From positions 992,001 to 1,056,000 of the forward strand of contig NZ_FNTX01000002.1 of NCBI RefSeq assembly GCF_900105765.1: DNA of 64,000 bases. Reading direction: 5' to 3'. This DNA is from Ruania alba (GTDB taxonomy: Bacteria; Actinomycetota; Actinomycetes; Actinomycetales; Beutenbergiaceae). Positions within the stretch are counted from its first letter, which is position 1; every line of letters begins with the position of its first letter. The translations under genes were made by a program, and so were the position numbers. This document shows, in pieces, positions 38,208 through 46,783 of this stretch. The notes under the pieces were generated by a model, which had not been told where the DNA came from, did not search any database, and saw only the letters and a list, made by a program, of their open reading frames with translations.

Positions 38208-39035
38208 TCAGATCGTGGCAGTGATCAGCGCGCCGATCTCCTCGGCCAGGTCGCGGCTGGCTGCCACCACACCCGAGTAGCGACGGGTCAGGTCATGGGA
38301 GAAGTCGAGGTCGCGGCCGAAGGCGTCGCAGACGTGCCCGCCGGCCGCCGGCACGATCAGCTGGGCCGCGATCAGGTCCACGAGGCGGTGCGTGTCCGAT
38401 CCCGGGTCGGCGAACGCATCGATCGAGCCGTCCGCCACCAGCATCGACTCCAGGCAACTGGTCGAGAGGATCCGCACCCGGCCTGCCCGTCCGCTCAGGG
38501 CCGTCCAGACCCCGGTGGTGTCGCCCCGTGCCCCGACCTTCGGGCGCAGCATCGACAATGCGGACCCGGCCAGGGCGGTCCGGCCGCTGGTCCGGTACGT
38601 CACCGGCACACCCGCCCGCGCGCTGATGCTGCGCCCCGTCTCCAACCAGCAGGTGAGGGCTTCGACCGGCGTGCCGTCCGCCACGAGCGCACCGGAGAAA
38701 CAGGAGAGCGGTACACCGGCGGCCGCGTTCGCGGAGCCGTCGAGCGGATCGACCACCAGGGTGCGGGCACTGCCGTGATCGAGGAAACCCACCTCCTCGC
38801 TGAGCACGTTGATCCGGTGAGCCTCGGCGACGGCGACGATCGCGTCCTCGACGAGTTCGTCGATGCGCATCGTGGGCGTGCCGTCTGCCCCCATCCGCAC
38901 CTCCTCCGCCCGCGCCTGGCGATCCAGTGCCGACCATGCGTGCCGCGCTGCGGTCGACGCCGCCCGGCACGCCTCCGCGAGTATGGGGTTCAGATCGGCA
39001 GGGAGTGCGGGCTCGGGCAGCGCGGTAACCGTCAT
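38208..39035 (-). CDS. Inositol monophosphatase family phosphatase
   Basis: The 275-residue Mg-dependent phosphatase has the family's metal sites: SEEVGF, VVDPLDGSANAAAGVP (the D-P-L-D-G-[ST]-x-N motif) and a late DTHRLVDLIAAQLIVPAAGG replacing the usual W-D-A segment. Its ATG overlaps the phnM stop, so it belongs to the C-P lyase operon. phnP and phnN are absent from the cluster, so it may dephosphorylate a ribose phosphate produced downstream of PhnJ. That role is inferred from position only. Confidence 0.85.
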   Translation of the reverse strand: MTVTALPEPALPADLNPILAEACRAASTAARHAWSALDRQARAEEVRMGADGTPTMRIDELVEDAIVAVAEAHRINVLSEEVGFLDHGSARTLVVDPLDGSANAAAGVPLSCFSGALVADGTPVEALTCWLETGRSISARAGVPVTYRTSGRTALAGSALSMLRPKVGARGDTTGVWTALSGRAGRVRILSTSCLESMLVADGSIDAFADPGSDTHRLVDLIAAQLIVPAAGGHVCDAFGRDLDFSHDLTRRYSGVVAASRDLAEEIGALITATI

Positions 39036-40237
39036 GCCCGCACACCCGTGGCCGAGAAGGTGGAGACCGCCGTCGGCCACTGCCTGTCGAGATCGACGAG
39101 TACCAGATCGGCGCGAAGCCCGGGTTCGATTCGACCTCGGTCGCTCAGCCCGGCCACGGCGGCCGGACCTGCCGTGAGCAGCCGGAACGCCTCCGGCGGC
39201 TCGACGCCCAGATCGCGGCGCAGTACCGCGAGGCTGCCAAGTAGCCCGGACGGGAGATAGTCCGAGGCGAGTGCATCCACCAGCCCTGCCGTGATGAGCT
39301 CGGCGGCGCTCACGTTGCCCGAGTGGGAGGAACCTCGGAGCACGTTCGGAGCTCCAGCAACGGTGAGCAGCCCACACTCCCTCGCACGGCGGGCCGCGGC
39401 CAGCGTGGTCGGGAACTCCGCCACCGCACCCCCGCGGGCGAGGAGCTGATCGATCGCCTCGGCCGTGTCCGGGTCGTGCCCGAGCAACCGGGCCCTTCCC
39501 GACGACGCCAGCTCGCCCGCCCAGGTGAGGTTCGCCTCGCGCACGTGCTCGGTCCGGGCGGCCTGCTCCATCCGCTCCTGCACGCGACGTTCGACCTCGG
39601 CGCGGTCCTCGCCGGACTCGACGAGTGTGTCGATGAAGTGGCCCACGTCGGCATACTGGCCCTGACCGGGTGTGTGGTCCTCATGGGAGAGCAGGATCGG
39701 GCCGGTGCCGGGTGACAGATCCGCGATCCGGGTGCCGATCAGCTCGGCGCCCTGGTCGGAGCGGACGTTGAAGCGGTGCAGCACCCGATGGTCCACCCGG
39801 GTGCTGGTGAAGGCGTCCACCACGTCGCACAGCTCGAGGGCGAGCGAGGGCCGGCGAGCGACGCCGTCGGAGACCTTGTTGTGGAAGCCGGCGCCGTGGA
39901 AGACCGTGGTGATCCCGGCGGCCACCACCTTGCCTTCGAAGGACGCCATCGCGTAGTCCCACGGCAGCTCGGCCGACGGACGCGGGGTGCGCTCCTTCTC
40001 CAGCGCATCGCTGTGCACATCGATCAGGCCAGGCGCGAGCAGCAGCCCGCCGCCGTCCACGTCACCGCGGATCTTGGCCGACTCCACCACCTCGGCGATC
40101 AGCCCGTTCTCGACGGCGACCGCCGCCCGATCGGTGACCCGCCCGGGAAGCACTACGTGGACGTCGGAGATGACGTAGTCGGCCGGGGTGGTGCCGAACC
40201 GCCAGCCCTGCCGCACTGCTGAGATGGTCGTGCTCAT
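39032..40237 (-). CDS. phnM: Alpha-D-ribose 1-methylphosphonate 5-triphosphate diphosphatase PhnM
   Basis: The 401-residue amidohydrolase-superfamily protein has the PhnM metal motif APGLIDVHSDALEKERTPRP, then VFHGAGFHNKVSDG, ILLSHEDHTPGQGQYAD and the terminal GRIEPGLRADLVLVDLD. It removes pyrophosphate from the 5'-triphosphate formed by PhnI/G/H/L, giving the substrate for PhnJ. Its start overlaps phnL (ATGA) and its stop overlaps the IMPase gene. Confidence 0.93.
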   Translation of the reverse strand: MSTTISAVRQGWRFGTTPADYVISDVHVVLPGRVTDRAAVAVENGLIAEVVESAKIRGDVDGGGLLLAPGLIDVHSDALEKERTPRPSAELPWDYAMASFEGKVVAAGITTVFHGAGFHNKVSDGVARRPSLALELCDVVDAFTSTRVDHRVLHRFNVRSDQGAELIGTRIADLSPGTGPILLSHEDHTPGQGQYADVGHFIDTLVESGEDRAEVERRVQERMEQAARTEHVREANLTWAGELASSGRARLLGHDPDTAEAIDQLLARGGAVAEFPTTLAAARRARECGLLTVAGAPNVLRGSSHSGNVSAAELITAGLVDALASDYLPSGLLGSLAVLRRDLGVEPPEAFRLLTAGPAAVAGLSDRGRIEPGLRADLVLVDLDRQWPTAVSTFSATGVRA

Positions 40238-41025
40238 GCGTAGGCCTCCTCCAGGACGGCGTGCCCGGGGACGAGCACGTCCTGCGGTGGTCCGTCCGCG
40301 GTGATCTGACCGTCGGCCATGACCAGCACCCGTCCGGCCACCCGGCGGATGATGCTCATGTCGTGGTAGACGGCCAGCACGGAGACGTCCTGGTGGCGCA
40401 GGGCCTCGATCACCTCCAGCGCGAGGGTCCGGTTCGCCGGATCGAGAGCCGAGACCGGTTCGTCCAGCAACAACAGCCGTGGCGGGCTGACGGTTCCGGC
40501 AGCCAGATTGACCCGCTGGCGCTCACCACCGGAGAGCACCGAGCAGTCCACGTCCCACAACCGCTCCTCGATGCCCAGCCGCAGGAGCGCAGCGGCGGCG
40601 GCCTCCCGTGCCTGTCCGCGGTCGAGGCCCCGGCGCAGCGCCGCATCGCTGACCAGTCGCAGCGGTCCCACCCGCGGTGGGGCGTTGAGGAACTGGGAGA
40701 CGTAGCCGAAGTCCCGCCCGCGCAGGCGTGCCATCGACCGGTCGTCCAGCGCCGTCAGGTCCACGGACTTGTGCCCGTCGTGCAGCACCACCGTGCCGGA
40801 GTCGGGCAGGTAGTTGCGGTAGATGCACCGCAGCAGGCTCGACTTGCCCGCCCCGCTGGCACCTGCCAGTGCGAGGTGCTCGCCCCGGCGCAGGGTGAAG
40901 GAGACCGAACGCAGCGACTGCACCCGCCGGTCGATGGCGTGCAGCGTGAACGACTTCGTCAGCTCGGTCACGGTGAGGATCGGCTCGGGGTGGGGTGAGG
41001 TCATCATGTGCTCTTCCGGTGTCAT
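40234..41025 (-). CDS. phnL: Phosphonate C-P lyase system ABC-type protein PhnL
   Basis: The 263-residue ABC-family protein has Walker A LAGASGAGKSS, signature VLSGGERQRVNLAAG, Walker B LLLLDEPVSALD and H-loop AVYHDMS. In other C-P lyase systems PhnL is needed with PhnGHI to attach the phosphonate to ribose; it is not a transport ATPase. The PhnL segments RNYLPDSG and FGYVSQFLNAPPRV distinguish it from PhnK. Its ATG overlaps the phnJ/K stop. Confidence 0.92.
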   Translation of the reverse strand: MTPEEHMMTSPHPEPILTVTELTKSFTLHAIDRRVQSLRSVSFTLRRGEHLALAGASGAGKSSLLRCIYRNYLPDSGTVVLHDGHKSVDLTALDDRSMARLRGRDFGYVSQFLNAPPRVGPLRLVSDAALRRGLDRGQAREAAAAALLRLGIEERLWDVDCSVLSGGERQRVNLAAGTVSPPRLLLLDEPVSALDPANRTLALEVIEALRHQDVSVLAVYHDMSIIRRVAGRVLVMADGQITADGPPQDVLVPGHAVLEEAYA

Positions 41026-42806
41026 GCCCGTGCCGCCGCGACGAGCTGCTGGGTGTAGGGGTGGTGCGGGTCGGCGAACAGTTGGTCGGTCAGTCCTGAC
41101 TCGACGACGCGCCCGTGGCGCATCACGACGGCACGGTCGGTGAGCGCGTCGATCACCGCGAAGTCGTGGCTGACCACGACGACGGCGAGCTCACGTTCGG
41201 CGAGCAGCTCACGCAGCAGGTCCAGCACGCCGGCCGCCACTGCGGCGTCCAGTCCGGTGGTGGGTTCGTCCAGCAGCAGCACCTGCGGATCGGTGGCGAG
41301 CGCCTTGGCGATCTGCACCCGCTGGCGCATCCCTCCGGAGAACTGCCCCACGACGTCGTCGATCCGGTTCAACGGGACCTCGACCCGTTCCAACAGCTCG
41401 GCGGCCCGGCGCCGGATCCGGTGGTAGGACCGCCAGCCGGCGGCCACCAGCGCGTCGGCGATGTTCCCGCCGGCGGAGATCGCCAGATCGAGCCCGGCGG
41501 CCGGATCCTGGTAGACCACGCTGAGCACGTGGGTGCGCAGCGCGCGCCGTTCCGACGGCGTCAGCTGGAGCAGGTTCGTCTCCCCGCGGTCCACGGCCCC
41601 GATCCGGACACTGCCGGTGGCGTCGAGCTCGTCGCCGACGATGCAGCGCATCACGGTCGACTTGCCGGACCCGGACTCGCCGATCACGCCGAGCGCCTCA
41701 GCGGGGGCGACGTCGAAGGAGACATCCGCCGCGGCGACTACCTCGGAGGATCCGCGCCCGCCGGGGAAGATCCTGCCGAGCCCGTCTACCCGTAACGACC
41801 AGTCCTGCCCGGGGGCGGTCACGCCGGCCGGCGGTGGGACGTGCTCGGTGGGATCGACCTTCGCCCGGGCCCGTACACGGGTATTCGGGTCGGGGTAGTA
41901 GTGCCGGGGCACGAGGCGCTCATGGGCGTCGAGGTCGGCCTCGCCGGCGCGGACCTTCAGGCACCACTGCACGTCCGAGCAGATGAACTCGCCGGTCCTG
42001 GTCTCCACCATGAACGACTCGGCGGTCCCGCACTGGGCGCAGGTGACGCCGTCGAGGTGCTCGACCTCGAAGGGCACATCGGAGAAGGACAGCGGTTCGA
42101 CGTCGGTGTAGGGCGGGACGGCGTAGATCTTCTTGTCGCGGCCGTGGCTGAGGAGGGTGAGACTGTCGCTCTGGTGCAGTCGCGGCACGTCCCAGCGCGG
42201 GATCGGGCTGGGCGACATCAGGTAGCGCCCGTGCACGAGCACCGGGTGACCGGCCCCGGTGCCCATCACGCCGGTGAGGGAGAGCCGCTCGTACAGCGCC
42301 ACCCACATCTTGGCGTAGTCGGCCTCGGCGTGGCGGCGCTTGCACTCATAGACCGAGCGCTCGACCGCGCGCAGCGGCTCCGACTGCGGCACCTGCAGCA
42401 CCAGCGTCTGGTGGTTGCCCAGGTGCTCCTCCGGCACCCGGTGACGGGACTGCACGATCGTCGACTCCGCCGTATCGGCAGTGGCCGAGCAGCCGAGCAC
42501 GCCCACGAGCAGCCGGCGCAGGTTGACTGCGTTGACCCCCTCCTCGTCGCCCTGGTCGATCACCTTGACGGTGTCGTCAGGCCCGCCGATCGCGAGCGTC
42601 ACCTGGAGGCCACCGGAGCCCCAGCCGCGAGCGACCGGCATCTCCCGTGATCCGAACGGCACGATATAGCCAGGCACGCAGATGCCGGAGAGGACCGCAC
42701 GCCGGACCTCGCGCTTGGCCTGTTCGTCCATGACGACGGGCCGGTTCTCAGCCCCGGACTCGGCCACCAGGGTCTCGAGAGTCGGTGCGGCAGTCGTGGC
42801 GGTCAT
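41022..42806 (-). CDS. phnJ: PhnJ-PhnK fusion: radical SAM C-P lyase joined to its ABC protein
   Basis: One 594-residue chain contains complete PhnJ (about 1-325) and PhnK (about 335-594). PhnJ landmarks are SGICVPGYIVPFGSREMPVARGWGSGG and four cysteines, Cys256, Cys259, Cys276 and Cys282 (C-x2-C-x16-C-x5-C); three ligate the Fe-S cluster and the last matches the radical-bearing cysteine. PhnK has Walker [10 protein letters not shown] (376-384), FSGGM (489-493), LLLDEP (510-515) and His547. In characterised systems the two are separate subunits that bind each other. The Pro-rich linker TEHVPPPAGVTAPGQ joins them without a stop. Start and stop overlap phnI and phnL. Confidence 0.92.
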   Translation of the reverse strand: MTATTAAPTLETLVAESGAENRPVVMDEQAKREVRRAVLSGICVPGYIVPFGSREMPVARGWGSGGLQVTLAIGGPDDTVKVIDQGDEEGVNAVNLRRLLVGVLGCSATADTAESTIVQSRHRVPEEHLGNHQTLVLQVPQSEPLRAVERSVYECKRRHAEADYAKMWVALYERLSLTGVMGTGAGHPVLVHGRYLMSPSPIPRWDVPRLHQSDSLTLLSHGRDKKIYAVPPYTDVEPLSFSDVPFEVEHLDGVTCAQCGTAESFMVETRTGEFICSDVQWCLKVRAGEADLDAHERLVPRHYYPDPNTRVRARAKVDPTEHVPPPAGVTAPGQDWSLRVDGLGRIFPGGRGSSEVVAAADVSFDVAPAEALGVIGESGSGKSTVMRCIVGDELDATGSVRIGAVDRGETNLLQLTPSERRALRTHVLSVVYQDPAAGLDLAISAGGNIADALVAAGWRSYHRIRRRAAELLERVEVPLNRIDDVVGQFSGGMRQRVQIAKALATDPQVLLLDEPTTGLDAAVAAGVLDLLRELLAERELAVVVVSHDFAVIDALTDRAVVMRHGRVVESGLTDQLFADPHHPYTQQLVAAARA

Positions 42807-43960
42807 CGGTCGTTCCTCTCGGTGGCGGCAGCCGTCGCGATGGGGGTCGTGGCGTTCTCGTCGGGATCCTCGGCGAGGTGTTCGAGTGCGTCGGCTTCCG
42901 CCCGTGCGGCCATGGCGGCATCCAGCCCGGACTGGAAGGTCACGTAGTGCGGCAGCTTCAGGTGCTCCAGGAAGCCGCTGGCCGAGAGCCCGTCGGTGGT
43001 GTGCATGAGGATCTGCTGCAGGCGCTTGCCGTCCTCGGTGCCGCGGAACCGGTGCGCGGCGATGTCGAGGGTGGCTCCCGAGATGGTCTTGCGCTCGTTG
43101 TGGCCCAGCGCCATGGCGTACCCGACGTCGTAGGTGGTCGGGTCCTCTCCGCGCAGCCCACCCAGGTGGGCGACGGCCTCGGTCTCGCTCACCCGGATCC
43201 GCCCGATCTCGACGGCCTCGCCGGTGTGCGGGTGCTGCACGCGGACCGGGAGGCGGCCGTGGCGGACCTCGCCGAGGGTGACGTTCTCGGTGGCGTACCC
43301 ATCGGTGCCGAGGATCGACTGATACCAGATGTTGATCAGGCCGCCGGTGTCGGCCTGCGCGATCGCGGACAGCCATGCCGAACGCTGGGCGGGTAGCTCG
43401 GCGGCCTTGAGCTGGATGTCGAAGGGTTCCGCGTCTGCGCCGGTGTCGCGGTCGACCAGCACTCCTTTCTCGGCGAGCTGATCGCGGAACCGCAGGAAGG
43501 GCTCGTCCGGCGGGTGGGAGAGGGGCTCGCCGTCCAGCTCGTCCACGATCGGCAGTGGCAGGTCGGTGCCCTCATGGATGATCCGGGCGGTGTAGTCGAC
43601 GGTCTCGCCGAGCAGGATCGGACCGTCGGGCTGGCGCTGGGTGGAGACCACCCGGCGCAGAATCTGAAGCTCGCGCGGGTCCAACGGTTCGCTGAACTCC
43701 AGGCGGGGCAGGGTCGAACGGTGGGCGCGGATCAGGTGGACCGCCTCGGTGATATCACCATTGGCCTGGAGGAAGGCCGAGGCTGCGGTCTCCGGGGACC
43801 ACAGTCCGCCCTCGCCCATGATCCGGTCGATCGCGAGCGGGAAGCTCTCGACGACGGACGCGGCCGTCAGGGCGCCGTCCAGCTGGGCGCGCCGCTCCAG
43901 CACGAGCCGTTCCGCGGCGACGATCGCCTCGGTCCCGCCCTTGTTCGTTCCGGCGTACAT
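42803..43960 (-). CDS. phnI: Carbon-phosphorus lyase complex subunit PhnI
   Basis: The 385-residue PhnI contains TNKGGTEAIVAAE at the start, ETVDYTARIIHEGTDLPLPIVDELDGEP, GYAMALGHNERKTISGATLD and LPHYVTFQSGLDAAMAARAEAD near the end. It is the nucleosidase-like subunit that, with PhnG, H and L, displaces adenine from ATP with the phosphonate. The ATG at 43960 follows the phnH stop directly (TGATG), and its stop overlaps phnJ. Confidence 0.93.
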   Translation of the reverse strand: MYAGTNKGGTEAIVAAERLVLERRAQLDGALTAASVVESFPLAIDRIMGEGGLWSPETAASAFLQANGDITEAVHLIRAHRSTLPRLEFSEPLDPRELQILRRVVSTQRQPDGPILLGETVDYTARIIHEGTDLPLPIVDELDGEPLSHPPDEPFLRFRDQLAEKGVLVDRDTGADAEPFDIQLKAAELPAQRSAWLSAIAQADTGGLINIWYQSILGTDGYATENVTLGEVRHGRLPVRVQHPHTGEAVEIGRIRVSETEAVAHLGGLRGEDPTTYDVGYAMALGHNERKTISGATLDIAAHRFRGTEDGKRLQQILMHTTDGLSASGFLEHLKLPHYVTFQSGLDAAMAARAEADALEHLAEDPDENATTPIATAAATERNDR

Positions 43961-44583
43961 CAGATCACCTCGATCGTGGTGGTGCGGGGCAGACCGGCGA
44001 GCGTGCCGTCGTCGGCCACGAGCAGGCAGTCGATGCCGGCGGGGTAGTCGGCCACGAGTGCCGCACGTTGGGTCACCCAGGCCGGGCTGAGGCCGGTGAC
44101 CGCGATCGTCGCGGGCGTGGCCGGTGGGATGCCCGGGCCGCGTAGTTGCCAGGGACCGGACGCCGTCAGGGAGTGCACGCGCTGAACCAGCACGGCGCCC
44201 TGCTCGGGCGACCAGTGCGAGCCGGTGCTCAGCTCGACCCAGTCCAAGGGCTCGGCGAGCGCGAGCGCGAAGCGGGCCCGCCCAGGACTGACCACGGGTG
44301 CACCGGTCAGCCGGCCGACCGTGGCGACCGCCCGGGTGGTGGCATCGTCGGGACCGGCGGGCAGCGCCGCGAGCGGAGCCATCAGGTCCACCAGAGCGAG
44401 CAGCGGTGCGAGTGCCGCCGGGACGGGCTCGGGCACCGCCCCGGCGGGGAGGCGGTGCAGGGTGCCGGGGCGTGCCAGTGCCTCCATGGAGGCGTGAAAG
44501 ACCTGCTGGGAGACGGTGGGTGAGAGCTCCCGGAGCACCGGCCAGGACTCGACCGGGGCGAGCGGGGTGGTGGTGATGGTCAC
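43960..44583 (-). CDS. phnH: Carbon-phosphorus lyase complex subunit PhnH
   Basis: The 207-residue PhnH contains VSQQVFHASMEALARPGTLHRLPAG near the start, a variable middle, the GSHWSPEQGAVLV segment, and LRGPGIPPATPATIAVTGLSPAWVTQRAALVADYPAGIDCLLV. It has the usual length for the family and forms part of the PhnGHIJ core. The GTG start at 44583 is fixed by GAGGAG upstream and the GTGA overlap with phnG; longer in-frame starts would run into phnG. Confidence 0.9.
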   Translation of the reverse strand: MTITTTPLAPVESWPVLRELSPTVSQQVFHASMEALARPGTLHRLPAGAVPEPVPAALAPLLALVDLMAPLAALPAGPDDATTRAVATVGRLTGAPVVSPGRARFALALAEPLDWVELSTGSHWSPEQGAVLVQRVHSLTASGPWQLRGPGIPPATPATIAVTGLSPAWVTQRAALVADYPAGIDCLLVADDGTLAGLPRTTTIEVI

Positions 44584-45014
44584 GGGATCTCCTCGAACTC
44601 GACGATGGATGGGGCCAGGCGCTCCCACTCCCGGGCGCGGCCGGCCCGGCGTTGTTCGGCGCTGCGGGTGCACAGGTCGCCGACCTCACCGGCCCGGGGT
44701 CCGTCGCTGGTGTACTCGGCCGCGAGGATGGCGGCGGCGAGGGCGGCCATCTTGTCGCCGCCCAGCCGCATCGCCCAGCCCGGGGAGCCCCGGCGGGTGA
44801 CCTCGGCGCGGCAGACCATCGTGTCGCCGAGGATGAACCGCTCCTCGGCGATGGGCTCGCGCACCTGCGTGACGACGACTCCGACGGTGGCCGGGCGGGT
44901 CACCGTGATGTCGGGGTCGTCGGTGAGGCATGCGGAGGCCAGGGCAATGACCTCGGCGGCGTCGGCCTGGTTGAGCTCGGAACTCACCCAGGCGGGAATG
45001 AGTGGTGTGGTCAT
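44580..45014 (-). CDS. phnG: Carbon-phosphorus lyase complex subunit PhnG
   Basis: The 144-residue PhnG contains TRPATVGVVVTQVREPIAEERFILGDTMVCRAEV and the terminal REWERLAPSIVEFEEI. It is the small core subunit of the C-P lyase complex. ATG 45014 has AAAGG upstream and gives the normal length. It follows the permease gene by 50 bp, the largest gap inside the operon apart from that after phnD-rpiR. Confidence 0.9.
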   Translation of the reverse strand: MTTPLIPAWVSSELNQADAAEVIALASACLTDDPDITVTRPATVGVVVTQVREPIAEERFILGDTMVCRAEVTRRGSPGWAMRLGGDKMAALAAAILAAEYTSDGPRAGEVGDLCTRSAEQRRAGRAREWERLAPSIVEFEEIP

Positions 45015-45064: not shown

Positions 45065-46783
45065 TCACTGGACCTTCTTGCGGGTCCACAGGGCGAGTGC
45101 TTCGGAGAGCAGCACGGTGGCGACCACGAGGATCAGGCAGGTGGTGACCACCCCGAACTCGAGAACGCGGGAGGCGTTGGTCATGTAGAAGCCGATGCCG
45201 CCGGCGCCGATCACGCCCAGGCCGGTCGCGGCCCGCAGGTTGGTGTCGAGCTGGTGCATCGTGTGTGCGGCCAGGGCGGGGGCGACCTGACGCAAGGTGG
45301 CGGCGAAGAACACCTGCACGTCGCCCGCCCCGGAGGCGCGGACGGCGTCCTGGACGCGGACGTCGACCTCTTCCAGGGAGTCGGCGATCACCTTCGCGAA
45401 GAACCCGATCGCCCCGATGGACAGTGCGAGTGCACCGGCGGTTGCGCCGAGGCCGGTGATGACCACGAAGCAGATGCCGATGATGATCCCTGGGATGGCG
45501 CGGATCGCCACCACACAGGCGCGGAAGGTGGCTGCCACGCGTGGCCCCGGAGAGACGTTGCGGGCGGAGAGCAGGCCGAACGGGATGGCGAGGACGAGGC
45601 CCACCAGGGTGCCGGCCAGGCCCATCTGGATGGTCTCAAGCATGGTGGCGAGCAGCTTCTCGCCGATGCCGCCGGTGCTCGGTGGTACGTACAGCGCCAG
45701 CGTCTCGATGGCGTTCGCGAGTCCGCTGCTGAGCTGGCGCACGGAGATGTCGGCTGCCAGGAGGGAGACAATCACGGCGACGACGATCAGCACGTTCCAG
45801 CCGGTGGTGCGGATGCGTCGGCCGGTCCACGGCGGGCTCACCCGGGCGGTCGAGCCCTCGGAGCGGATCCAGGAGGGGCTGGGCAGGTGGGCCCGGAAGA
45901 CCGACGACCACCGGGAGGGGCGGGAGGTGTCGGTACCGCCGAGCATCTGCTTACGGATCAGCCCCGAGACCAGCTCGGCGAGCAGGCAGAGCACCAGTAG
46001 TACGGCGGACAACCCCATGCCGAGCCGGTAGTTCATCGTTTCCAGTGCGGCCGAGATGTGCATGCCGATTCCGCTGACGCCGACGAAGCCGAGGATCACC
46101 GAGCCGCGCAGGTTGATGTCGAACGCGTGCAGGGTGGTGGCCACGATCTGCGGGCGCAGCTGCGGCAGGATCCCGCCGACGATCTGTTGGACCTGACCTG
46201 CGCCGGCGGCACGGAGCGCCTCCCGTGGTCCGGGGTCGATCTCCTCGATCGCATCGGCGAACAGCTTGCCCATCATCCCGACAGATCCGAGCCCGAGGGC
46301 GATGATCCCGGGCAGTGCCCCCAGGCCGACGGCGCGGACGAAGAAGGTGGCGACGATGAAGTCCGGGACGGCGCGTTCGAGCACGATCAGGACCCGGGCG
46401 GCAGTCCGCACCGAGCGGTTCCCGCAGGTGTTCTTCGCGGCGAGGAACGCCAGCGGCACACTGACGATGAGTCCGAGGACGGTCGCCAGGGCCACGATCG
46501 CCAGTGTCTGGGCGACCATGTCCCAGATCTCGCCCGGGCCGGGCAGCGTGAACGGGAAGGTGCGGCTGAGGAAGTCGACCGTGTTGTCCCAGCCGTCGAT
46601 GAGGGTGGCGATGTTGATGTGCAGCGCCTGGACCGACCAGCAGGCGGCCCCGAGGACCACCAGCAGCGTGAGGGTGAGCAACCGGGTGCTGGTGTCGGTG
46701 CGGGGGCGCAGCGGCAGGTCATCACCGCCCGGGCCGGGCCGGTGGCCCGACCCGGGCGACGTCGTCGAGGTGGCGGTGCTCAC
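45065..46783 (-). CDS. phnE: Phosphonate ABC transporter permease, fused double PhnE
   Basis: The 572-residue protein contains two BPD_transp_1 permease domains in tandem. The first (about 60-290) has EAA loop GPREALRAAGAGQVQQIVGGILPQ. The second (about 325-570) has EEVDVRVQDAVRASGAGDVQVFFAATLRQ. Phosphonate importers usually have one PhnE homodimer or separate PhnE1 and PhnE2 chains, so this is a pre-assembled heterodimer. The GTG start at 46783 overlaps the phnC stop. It works with PhnC and PhnD. Confidence 0.9.
   Translation of the reverse strand: MSTATSTTSPGSGHRPGPGGDDLPLRPRTDTSTRLLTLTLLVVLGAACWSVQALHINIATLIDGWDNTVDFLSRTFPFTLPGPGEIWDMVAQTLAIVALATVLGLIVSVPLAFLAAKNTCGNRSVRTAARVLIVLERAVPDFIVATFFVRAVGLGALPGIIALGLGSVGMMGKLFADAIEEIDPGPREALRAAGAGQVQQIVGGILPQLRPQIVATTLHAFDINLRGSVILGFVGVSGIGMHISAALETMNYRLGMGLSAVLLVLCLLAELVSGLIRKQMLGGTDTSRPSRWSSVFRAHLPSPSWIRSEGSTARVSPPWTGRRIRTTGWNVLIVVAVIVSLLAADISVRQLSSGLANAIETLALYVPPSTGGIGEKLLATMLETIQMGLAGTLVGLVLAIPFGLLSARNVSPGPRVAATFRACVVAIRAIPGIIIGICFVVITGLGATAGALALSIGAIGFFAKVIADSLEEVDVRVQDAVRASGAGDVQVFFAATLRQVAPALAAHTMHQLDTNLRAATGLGVIGAGGIGFYMTNASRVLEFGVVTTCLILVVATVLLSEALALWTRKKVQ

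Follow-up and report, generated by a model that had tools for sequence, protein, structure and literature searches.

In the active C-P lyase complex of Escherichia coli, two copies of PhnJ are found together with two copies of PhnK, a non-transporter ABC ATPase that is seated on the central insertion of PhnJ and prises the core open (PMC9947105). A stretch of 64,000 nucleotides from Ruania alba, hereafter the window, contains a gene in which both proteins lie in one reading frame. The locus raises the question of whether PhnJ and PhnK are made here as a single chain, how widely such a chain is found, and what it would mean for an enzyme of which the Discussion of PMC9947105 treats when and why ATP is spent as an open question. 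We consider it likely that the gene encodes a single-chain PhnJ-PhnK subunit of C-P lyase, in which a tether holds PhnK on PhnJ at 1:1.

A single frame within a C-P lyase operon

The phnJK gene reads without interruption from its ATG to its stop codon, with zero internal stops (Table 1). It sits in a full C-P lyase operon with the order phnG-H-I-JK-L-M, where phnL is called by its best match. The stop codon of phnI and the start codon of phnJK overlap as ATGA, and the stop codon of phnJK overlaps the start of phnL in the same way. The host assembly, of 4.83 Mb in 2 contigs, encodes one PhnJ, which is the fused copy, and one PhnI, which adjoins phnJK. No second good match to PhnK was found in this genome, where the fused domain scores 214.5 bits and is followed by an ABC protein at 157.6.

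Table 1. Positions of the operon genes and of the parts of the fused protein in the window
Feature	Position	Strand	Evidence or remark
phnG	44580..45014	-	PF06754, 57 bits
phnH, GTG start	43960..44583	-	PF05845, 119 bits (cut-off 25)
phnI	42803..43960	-	PF05861, 268 bits
phnJK fusion gene	41022..42806	-	594 residues; ATG at 42806, stop at 41022
PhnJ domain, residues 26-286	41949..42731	-	Pfam PF06007, 353 bits (cut-off 25)
Conserved anchor, residues 283-310, after fourth Cys	41877..41960	-	clade alignment, motif scan
Variable spacer, residues 311-335, Pro/Ala-rich in window	41802..41876	-	clade alignment
PhnK ATPase domain, residues 336-594	41025..41801	-	TIGR02323, motifs, structural matches
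phnL	40234..41025	-	TIGR02324, 216 bits (cut-off 256 not reached); top NCBIfam match
phnM	39032..40237	-	NF011990, 292 bits (exceeds cut-off 233)

The surroundings of the operon hold two further genes of note, both on the minus strand. Upstream of phnG, a 572-residue frame at 45065-46783 is matched by the PhnE model at two places and contains a pair of binding-protein-dependent permease domains, and is thus an in-frame PhnE-PhnE fusion in the same gene cluster as phnJK. After phnM, with an overlapping start, an inositol-monophosphatase-family gene is found at 38208-39035. A relative of this gene occurs in 36 of 99 loci, the window counted (14 fused and 22 separate), many loci being too short to tell, and it may have a role in processing the ribose phosphate product.

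Its profile match, glycine site, cysteines and operon mark the PhnJ half as the probable radical enzyme of C-P bond cleavage. G46, the equivalent of E. coli Gly32, and the four cysteines C256, C259, C276 and C282 are all kept in 30 of 30 fused proteins of the clade described below. The cysteines span 27 residues in the window and 26-28 in the fused clade, as against 28-36 in 62 separate PhnJ proteins (the pattern gave no score for four further separate rows).

The PhnK half is matched by ABC_tran (Pfam) at residues 361-517 and by TIGR02323, the PhnK model, at 359-591 with 212 bits. It holds a Walker A motif from residue 376, the Q-loop glutamine Q433, the signature at S490, the Walker B pair D513/E514 and the switch histidine H547. 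This complete set of ABC ATPase motifs (Walker A and B, Q loop, signature and H switch) is present in 30/30 fused rows, including the Walker B glutamate and the switch histidine. The sequence-only reading had described an unbroken PhnJ-to-PhnK frame at 41022-42806, radical SAM cysteines at 256, 259, 276 and 282, and the positions of Walker A, the signature and Walker B. The frame is borne out at 594 residues with both domains matched by profiles, and its coordinates were right, the minus strand being added here; the cysteine positions are correct by alignment, and the ATPase motifs fall where an alignment to E. coli PhnK puts them.

TIGR02323 is the top NCBIfam model for the PhnK half of the window and for five other fused proteins tested, all of which stay below its cut-off of 302.85 bits (212 in the window and 205-222 in the five). 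That this might be a trait of the fusion was dropped as an explanation, since the separate PhnKs of other lineages also miss the cut-off, all seven of those tested scoring 208-231 (L053, L060, L062 and L077 among them). E. coli PhnK passes with 411 bits. As separate PhnKs miss it too, the cut-off is best seen as a naming threshold that marks the E. coli-like branch. By the letter of the model the window domain is not a TIGR02323 member, and we call it PhnK-like from its position, tree and structure. The curated PhnK name is thereby withheld from much of the PhnK family, as the seven operon PhnKs that are not of the E. coli type illustrate. Because fused and tested separate PhnKs alike miss the cut-off, and a fused gene bears only one name, operons may be listed as though they had no phnK. 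The cluster of Streptomyces rhizosphaericus is given in PMC7866108 as phnMLJIHFCED, with no K, and a PhnJ-PhnK fusion could explain such a listing.

Many separate PhnKs (for example L003, L008 and L015) also carry a CxxC...CxxC insertion before Walker A. What is apparently the same stretch occurs without the cysteines in most fused proteins, and is missing in the sub-clade to which the window belongs.

Distribution and descent of the fused gene

Samples drawn around the host genome had suggested that the fusion was peculiar to it. Among 99 genomes of the relatives sample only 2 hold PhnJ, one of them being the window's own, and PhnJ was found in 18 of 396 genomes of the phylum and 11 of 393 of the class, with only the window copy fused. 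This was overturned when 84,980 species, each represented by one genome, were scanned with a query that aligned the window PhnJ with two relatives. At least 596 stretches matched, 533 were confirmed, and the best 80 were kept. PhnJ and PhnK share one frame in 30 among these best 80 of 533 confirmed loci (L019-L036, L038-L048 and L065). The other 50 comprise 48 unfused loci, one cut short within PhnJ (L083) and one ended by its contig after the anchor described below (L037). Since similarity to the window decided which 80 were kept, the fused share is not a measure of prevalence.

Mapping the fusion onto a phylogeny of PhnJ homologs had been proposed as a check from the first reading of the locus, and, L065 apart, it places the fusion in a single actinobacterial clade whether the tree is of PhnJ or of PhnK. 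The PhnJ tree was built from 98 rows (99 minus L083), leaving out the cysteine region and everything beyond; in it 30 fused rows, the window included, form one clade with L037 (97/90). The PhnK tree holds 93 rows, all from phn operons (95 minus L061 and L078, where Walker A could not be located), and recovers the same 30 fused rows as one clade (100/99). Members of this clade come from Rhodococcus, Nocardia, Mycobacterium, Pseudonocardia, Microlunatus, Actinopolymorpha and others. The nearest tree row to the window is Actinopolymorpha pittospori, with 80% identity over the PhnJ columns and 79% over the whole chain. The remaining fused locus, L065, lies outside the clade on both trees and beside two unfused rows on the PhnJ tree. 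Two changes per tree, with L037 uncounted, thus account for the distribution: one origin for the main clade, and one more for L065 if that fusion is real.

One family was sampled evenly, and 19 of its 351 genomes hold PhnJ. The fusion is open in 11 of these, decayed in 1 (L123) and absent in 7; in five of the 11 open copies the PhnK end is identical to that of a locus among the 29 other members of the main clade, and these are hence not new evidence. Fission back to two genes was not seen among the sampled clade rows. L123 was considered as a case and rejected, since it reads as a decayed copy that keeps the anchor but is interrupted in the linker and once more beyond it; L106-L108 were ruled out because they do not have the anchor. 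The decayed phnJK of L123 is followed by what, judged by eye, is an apparent transposase.

No relative was found on viral contigs in two scans with two peptide patterns each. Plasmid records gave 214 matches, none with an identity of at least 60%, and the best 20 of the 214 comprise 13 annotated with two separate genes, 1 with phnK alone and 6 with no annotated gene. Among phage records, one that is unannotated, from Pseudomonas phage Y12, matches at 48% identity in two segments that together span 82% of the query.

The join and the case for one chain

The sequence-only reading had spoken of a Pro-rich linker between the halves. A Pro/Ala-rich spacer is indeed present in the window, but the linker also contains a conserved anchor. 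Across 30 aligned main-clade proteins, the 28-residue anchor has D291, P300 and R310 in all 30 and H295 and P305 in 29. A motif scan for it matched the window and the contig-truncated L037, and among the 29 other fused clade rows it matched 28; the one row missed, L038, has an anchor that is visible in the alignment. The same scan matched none of 65 separate PhnJ tails, nor L065, while L083, cut short within PhnJ, could not be scanned. The spacer that follows is rich in Ala, Pro and Arg across the clade and is 21-29 residues long in 25 of 30 proteins, the remaining five having 15, 15, 35, 41 and 190. The PhnK part begins after it, with W336 in all 30. Summed over nine pairs that partly overlap, some sharing a row, pN/pS takes values of 0.14 in PhnJ and 0.12 in PhnK, with 0.40 in the anchor and 0.78 in the spacer. 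By this measure the anchor is under purifying selection and evolves as coding sequence, and the spacer is under weak constraint.

An AlphaFold2 monomer model of the window protein, built on 85 aligned proteins from the window and the loci, has a mean pLDDT of 88.3 and a pTM of 0.85, the latter suggesting that the J and K parts take up a fixed arrangement. The anchor, at pLDDT 84-95 in blocks of ten, is predicted to be confidently folded, and the spacer has values of 62-71 over residues 311-330. In a second member of the clade (592 residues, with a spacer of 15) pLDDT is 82.5 and pTM 0.75; the join falls to 42-49, and stretch 131-160, which is part of the PhnK-binding insertion, to 50-65. The PDB entries that Foldseek ranks highest for the window model are 4xb6 and 7z15-7z19, through their PhnJ and PhnK chains, with TM-scores by target of 0.87-0.93, and the best for the PhnK half are the PhnK chains of 7z15-7z19. 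A predicted structure, also proposed earlier as a check, thus has halves that match PhnJ and PhnK as they occur in the E. coli complex, within the limits of a monomer model.

The E. coli PhnJ-PhnK interface involves E149, Y158, D226, D228 and D229 of PhnJ and R78, R82, R116 and Y118 of PhnK (PMC9947105). In E. coli numbering, the PhnJ positions 149, 158 and 229 are D, Y and D, respectively, in each of 30/30 fused rows. D228 is kept in 27/30, with S in the window, and D226 is mostly T, being replaced in most separate relatives too. Three of the four PhnK contacts are kept in the fused proteins: R78 and R116 are R in all 30, and Y118 is Y in 29/30 fused rows as against 8/63 separate ones. R82 is replaced by I, V or T in every fused row and is R in only 3/63 separate rows. 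That most docking residues are kept argues that the tether comes on top of the J/K docking face. The fusion within C-P lyase that the sequence-only reading proposed has family, tree, interface and synteny evidence behind it.

A fused frame could nonetheless yield two proteins, if an internal start or a protease were to free PhnK and leave the fusion with little effect. The window linker contains two in-frame GTG codons, at residues 299 and 329, with Shine-Dalgarno (SD) matches of 4/6 and 3/6. L026 has a TTG with a 5/6 match, the unrelated L065 has a GTG behind a perfect AGGAGG, and the pLDDT of the spacer indicates that it is probably flexible. In a scoring of candidate PhnK starts that lie 28-80 codons ahead of Walker A, however, SD matches of at least 5/6 were found in 2/31 fused genes (L065 and, as 1/30 of the main clade, L026) and in 31/62 separate ones, and the best candidate start was ATG in 3/31 fused against 50/62 separate genes. 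These statistics favor a single chain. The clade-wide conservation of the anchor and the narrow range of spacer lengths also speak against two products, which we regard as improbable. Still further from likely, and in our estimate close to negligible, is an assembly or sequencing artifact that masks a stop or frameshift at the junction. The junction is open in the 29 other clade loci, which come from among the best 80 of 533, and in the 11 genomes of the sampled family, five of which repeat loci of the 29; the anchor, moreover, evolves as coding sequence. For the clade as a whole the artifact reading is already refuted.

The main rival to a functional tether is that the fusion is real but neutral, a stop codon having been lost in an overlapping phnJ-phnK pair and the result spread by descent with the mechanism unchanged. 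In many separate operons the two genes already adjoin or overlap (by 4 bases in E. coli, for instance), so that few steps would be needed to fuse them, and a second fusion has appeared elsewhere in L065. The docking residues are mostly as in separate pairs, and the weak constraint on the spacer fits the same account. Set against this, the anchor arrived with the fusion and is under purifying selection, a shorter cysteine span accompanies it, the spacer keeps to a narrow range of lengths, and no reversion to two genes appears among the sampled clade rows. We hold the neutral account to be possible yet clearly the less probable, and take the single-chain PhnJ-PhnK subunit, with its tether, as the preferred reading.

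What the tether does, together with its bearing on stoichiometry and gating, we infer from the E. coli complex. There, a lone PhnK on the core is disordered and inactive as an ATPase, hydrolysis takes place with a PhnK dimer that is capped by PhnL, and during ATP turnover one PhnK is displaced by 25 A with the core open (PMC9947105). Because there are two PhnJ per core, a PhnJ-PhnK chain would bring two PhnK domains to every core. The tether would deliver exactly two, pre-placed for dimerization, and every core would thus have its opening ATPase dimer in place; the one-PhnK state would be removed, and PhnL alone would be left to recruit. The anchor would pack on the C-terminal domain of PhnJ and set the exit point of the tether, and a spacer of about 25 residues would let PhnK swing as the core opens. 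As the E. coli complex already has two PhnJ and two PhnK, the fusion would fix the J:K ratio and not create a new one. A bolder proposal, that these proteins form a distinct Actinomycetes class of C-P lyase in which the anchor locks the ATPase, the one-ATPase off state is abolished and the PhnK stroke reaches the Fe-S domain of PhnJ, which the anchor extends, covalently, is offered tentatively and is in our view doubtful. A single chain would be a natural handle on the assembly and gating of C-P lyase. A complex with a fixed J:K ratio, obtained from a natural single chain, would aid structural work, and the fused chain would be a built-in test of whether PhnK must leave or exchange during the cycle.

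Comparison with known systems

The C-P lyase machine is known, and the single-chain form of PhnJ and PhnK is new within the literature searched, though domain-architecture listings may show the pair. Our search covered open-licence papers, and within that scope no report of a PhnJ-PhnK fusion was found. The words 'fusion' and 'fused' do not occur in the main text of PMC9947105. A PhnY-PhnZ fusion and a gfp fusion are described in PMC10574752, and PMC7866108 gives a survey of actinobacterial phn genes.

A two-domain ABC protein, Rv1281c OppD (8j5q), matches by sequence through its ABC half; transporter ATPases of this type have a single-domain score of 137 bits, as against 219 for E. coli PhnK. 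L065, from an Actinomycetes MAG, resembles the clade in having PhnJ and PhnK in one frame. It differs in standing apart on both trees, in having no anchor, and in its repetitive linker and the perfect SD sequence before its internal GTG, on account of which its gene may still yield two separate products.

On the trees, the separate pairs of Acidimicrobiia, Streptomyces and Nonomuraea (for example L060, L062 and L077) rank among the closest relatives that are not fused. The separate PhnJ proteins measured end 6-68 residues past the fourth cysteine and have no anchor, and separate phnK genes have their own start, with a good SD sequence in half of them. Four Streptomyces loci (L062, L070, L079 and L081) also contain two tandem, diverged phnI genes, with which an asymmetric core would be possible.

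Another close likeness is the Phn(GHIJKL)2 complex of E. coli (PMC9947105; 7z15-7z19), with which the fused proteins share their folds, their catalytic motifs, most J/K contacts and the neighbors G, H, I, L and M. There are differences in detail. The cysteine span is 27 residues in the window and 32 in E. coli PhnJ; the A-loop tyrosine of E. coli PhnK is His in 22/30 fused rows and Phe in the window; and Trp29 of E. coli PhnK, which stacks on PhnL, is Ala in 30/30 fused and 30/63 separate rows. PhnJ and PhnK are two chains in E. coli, whereas in the fused proteins they form one, joined through an anchor and a spacer.
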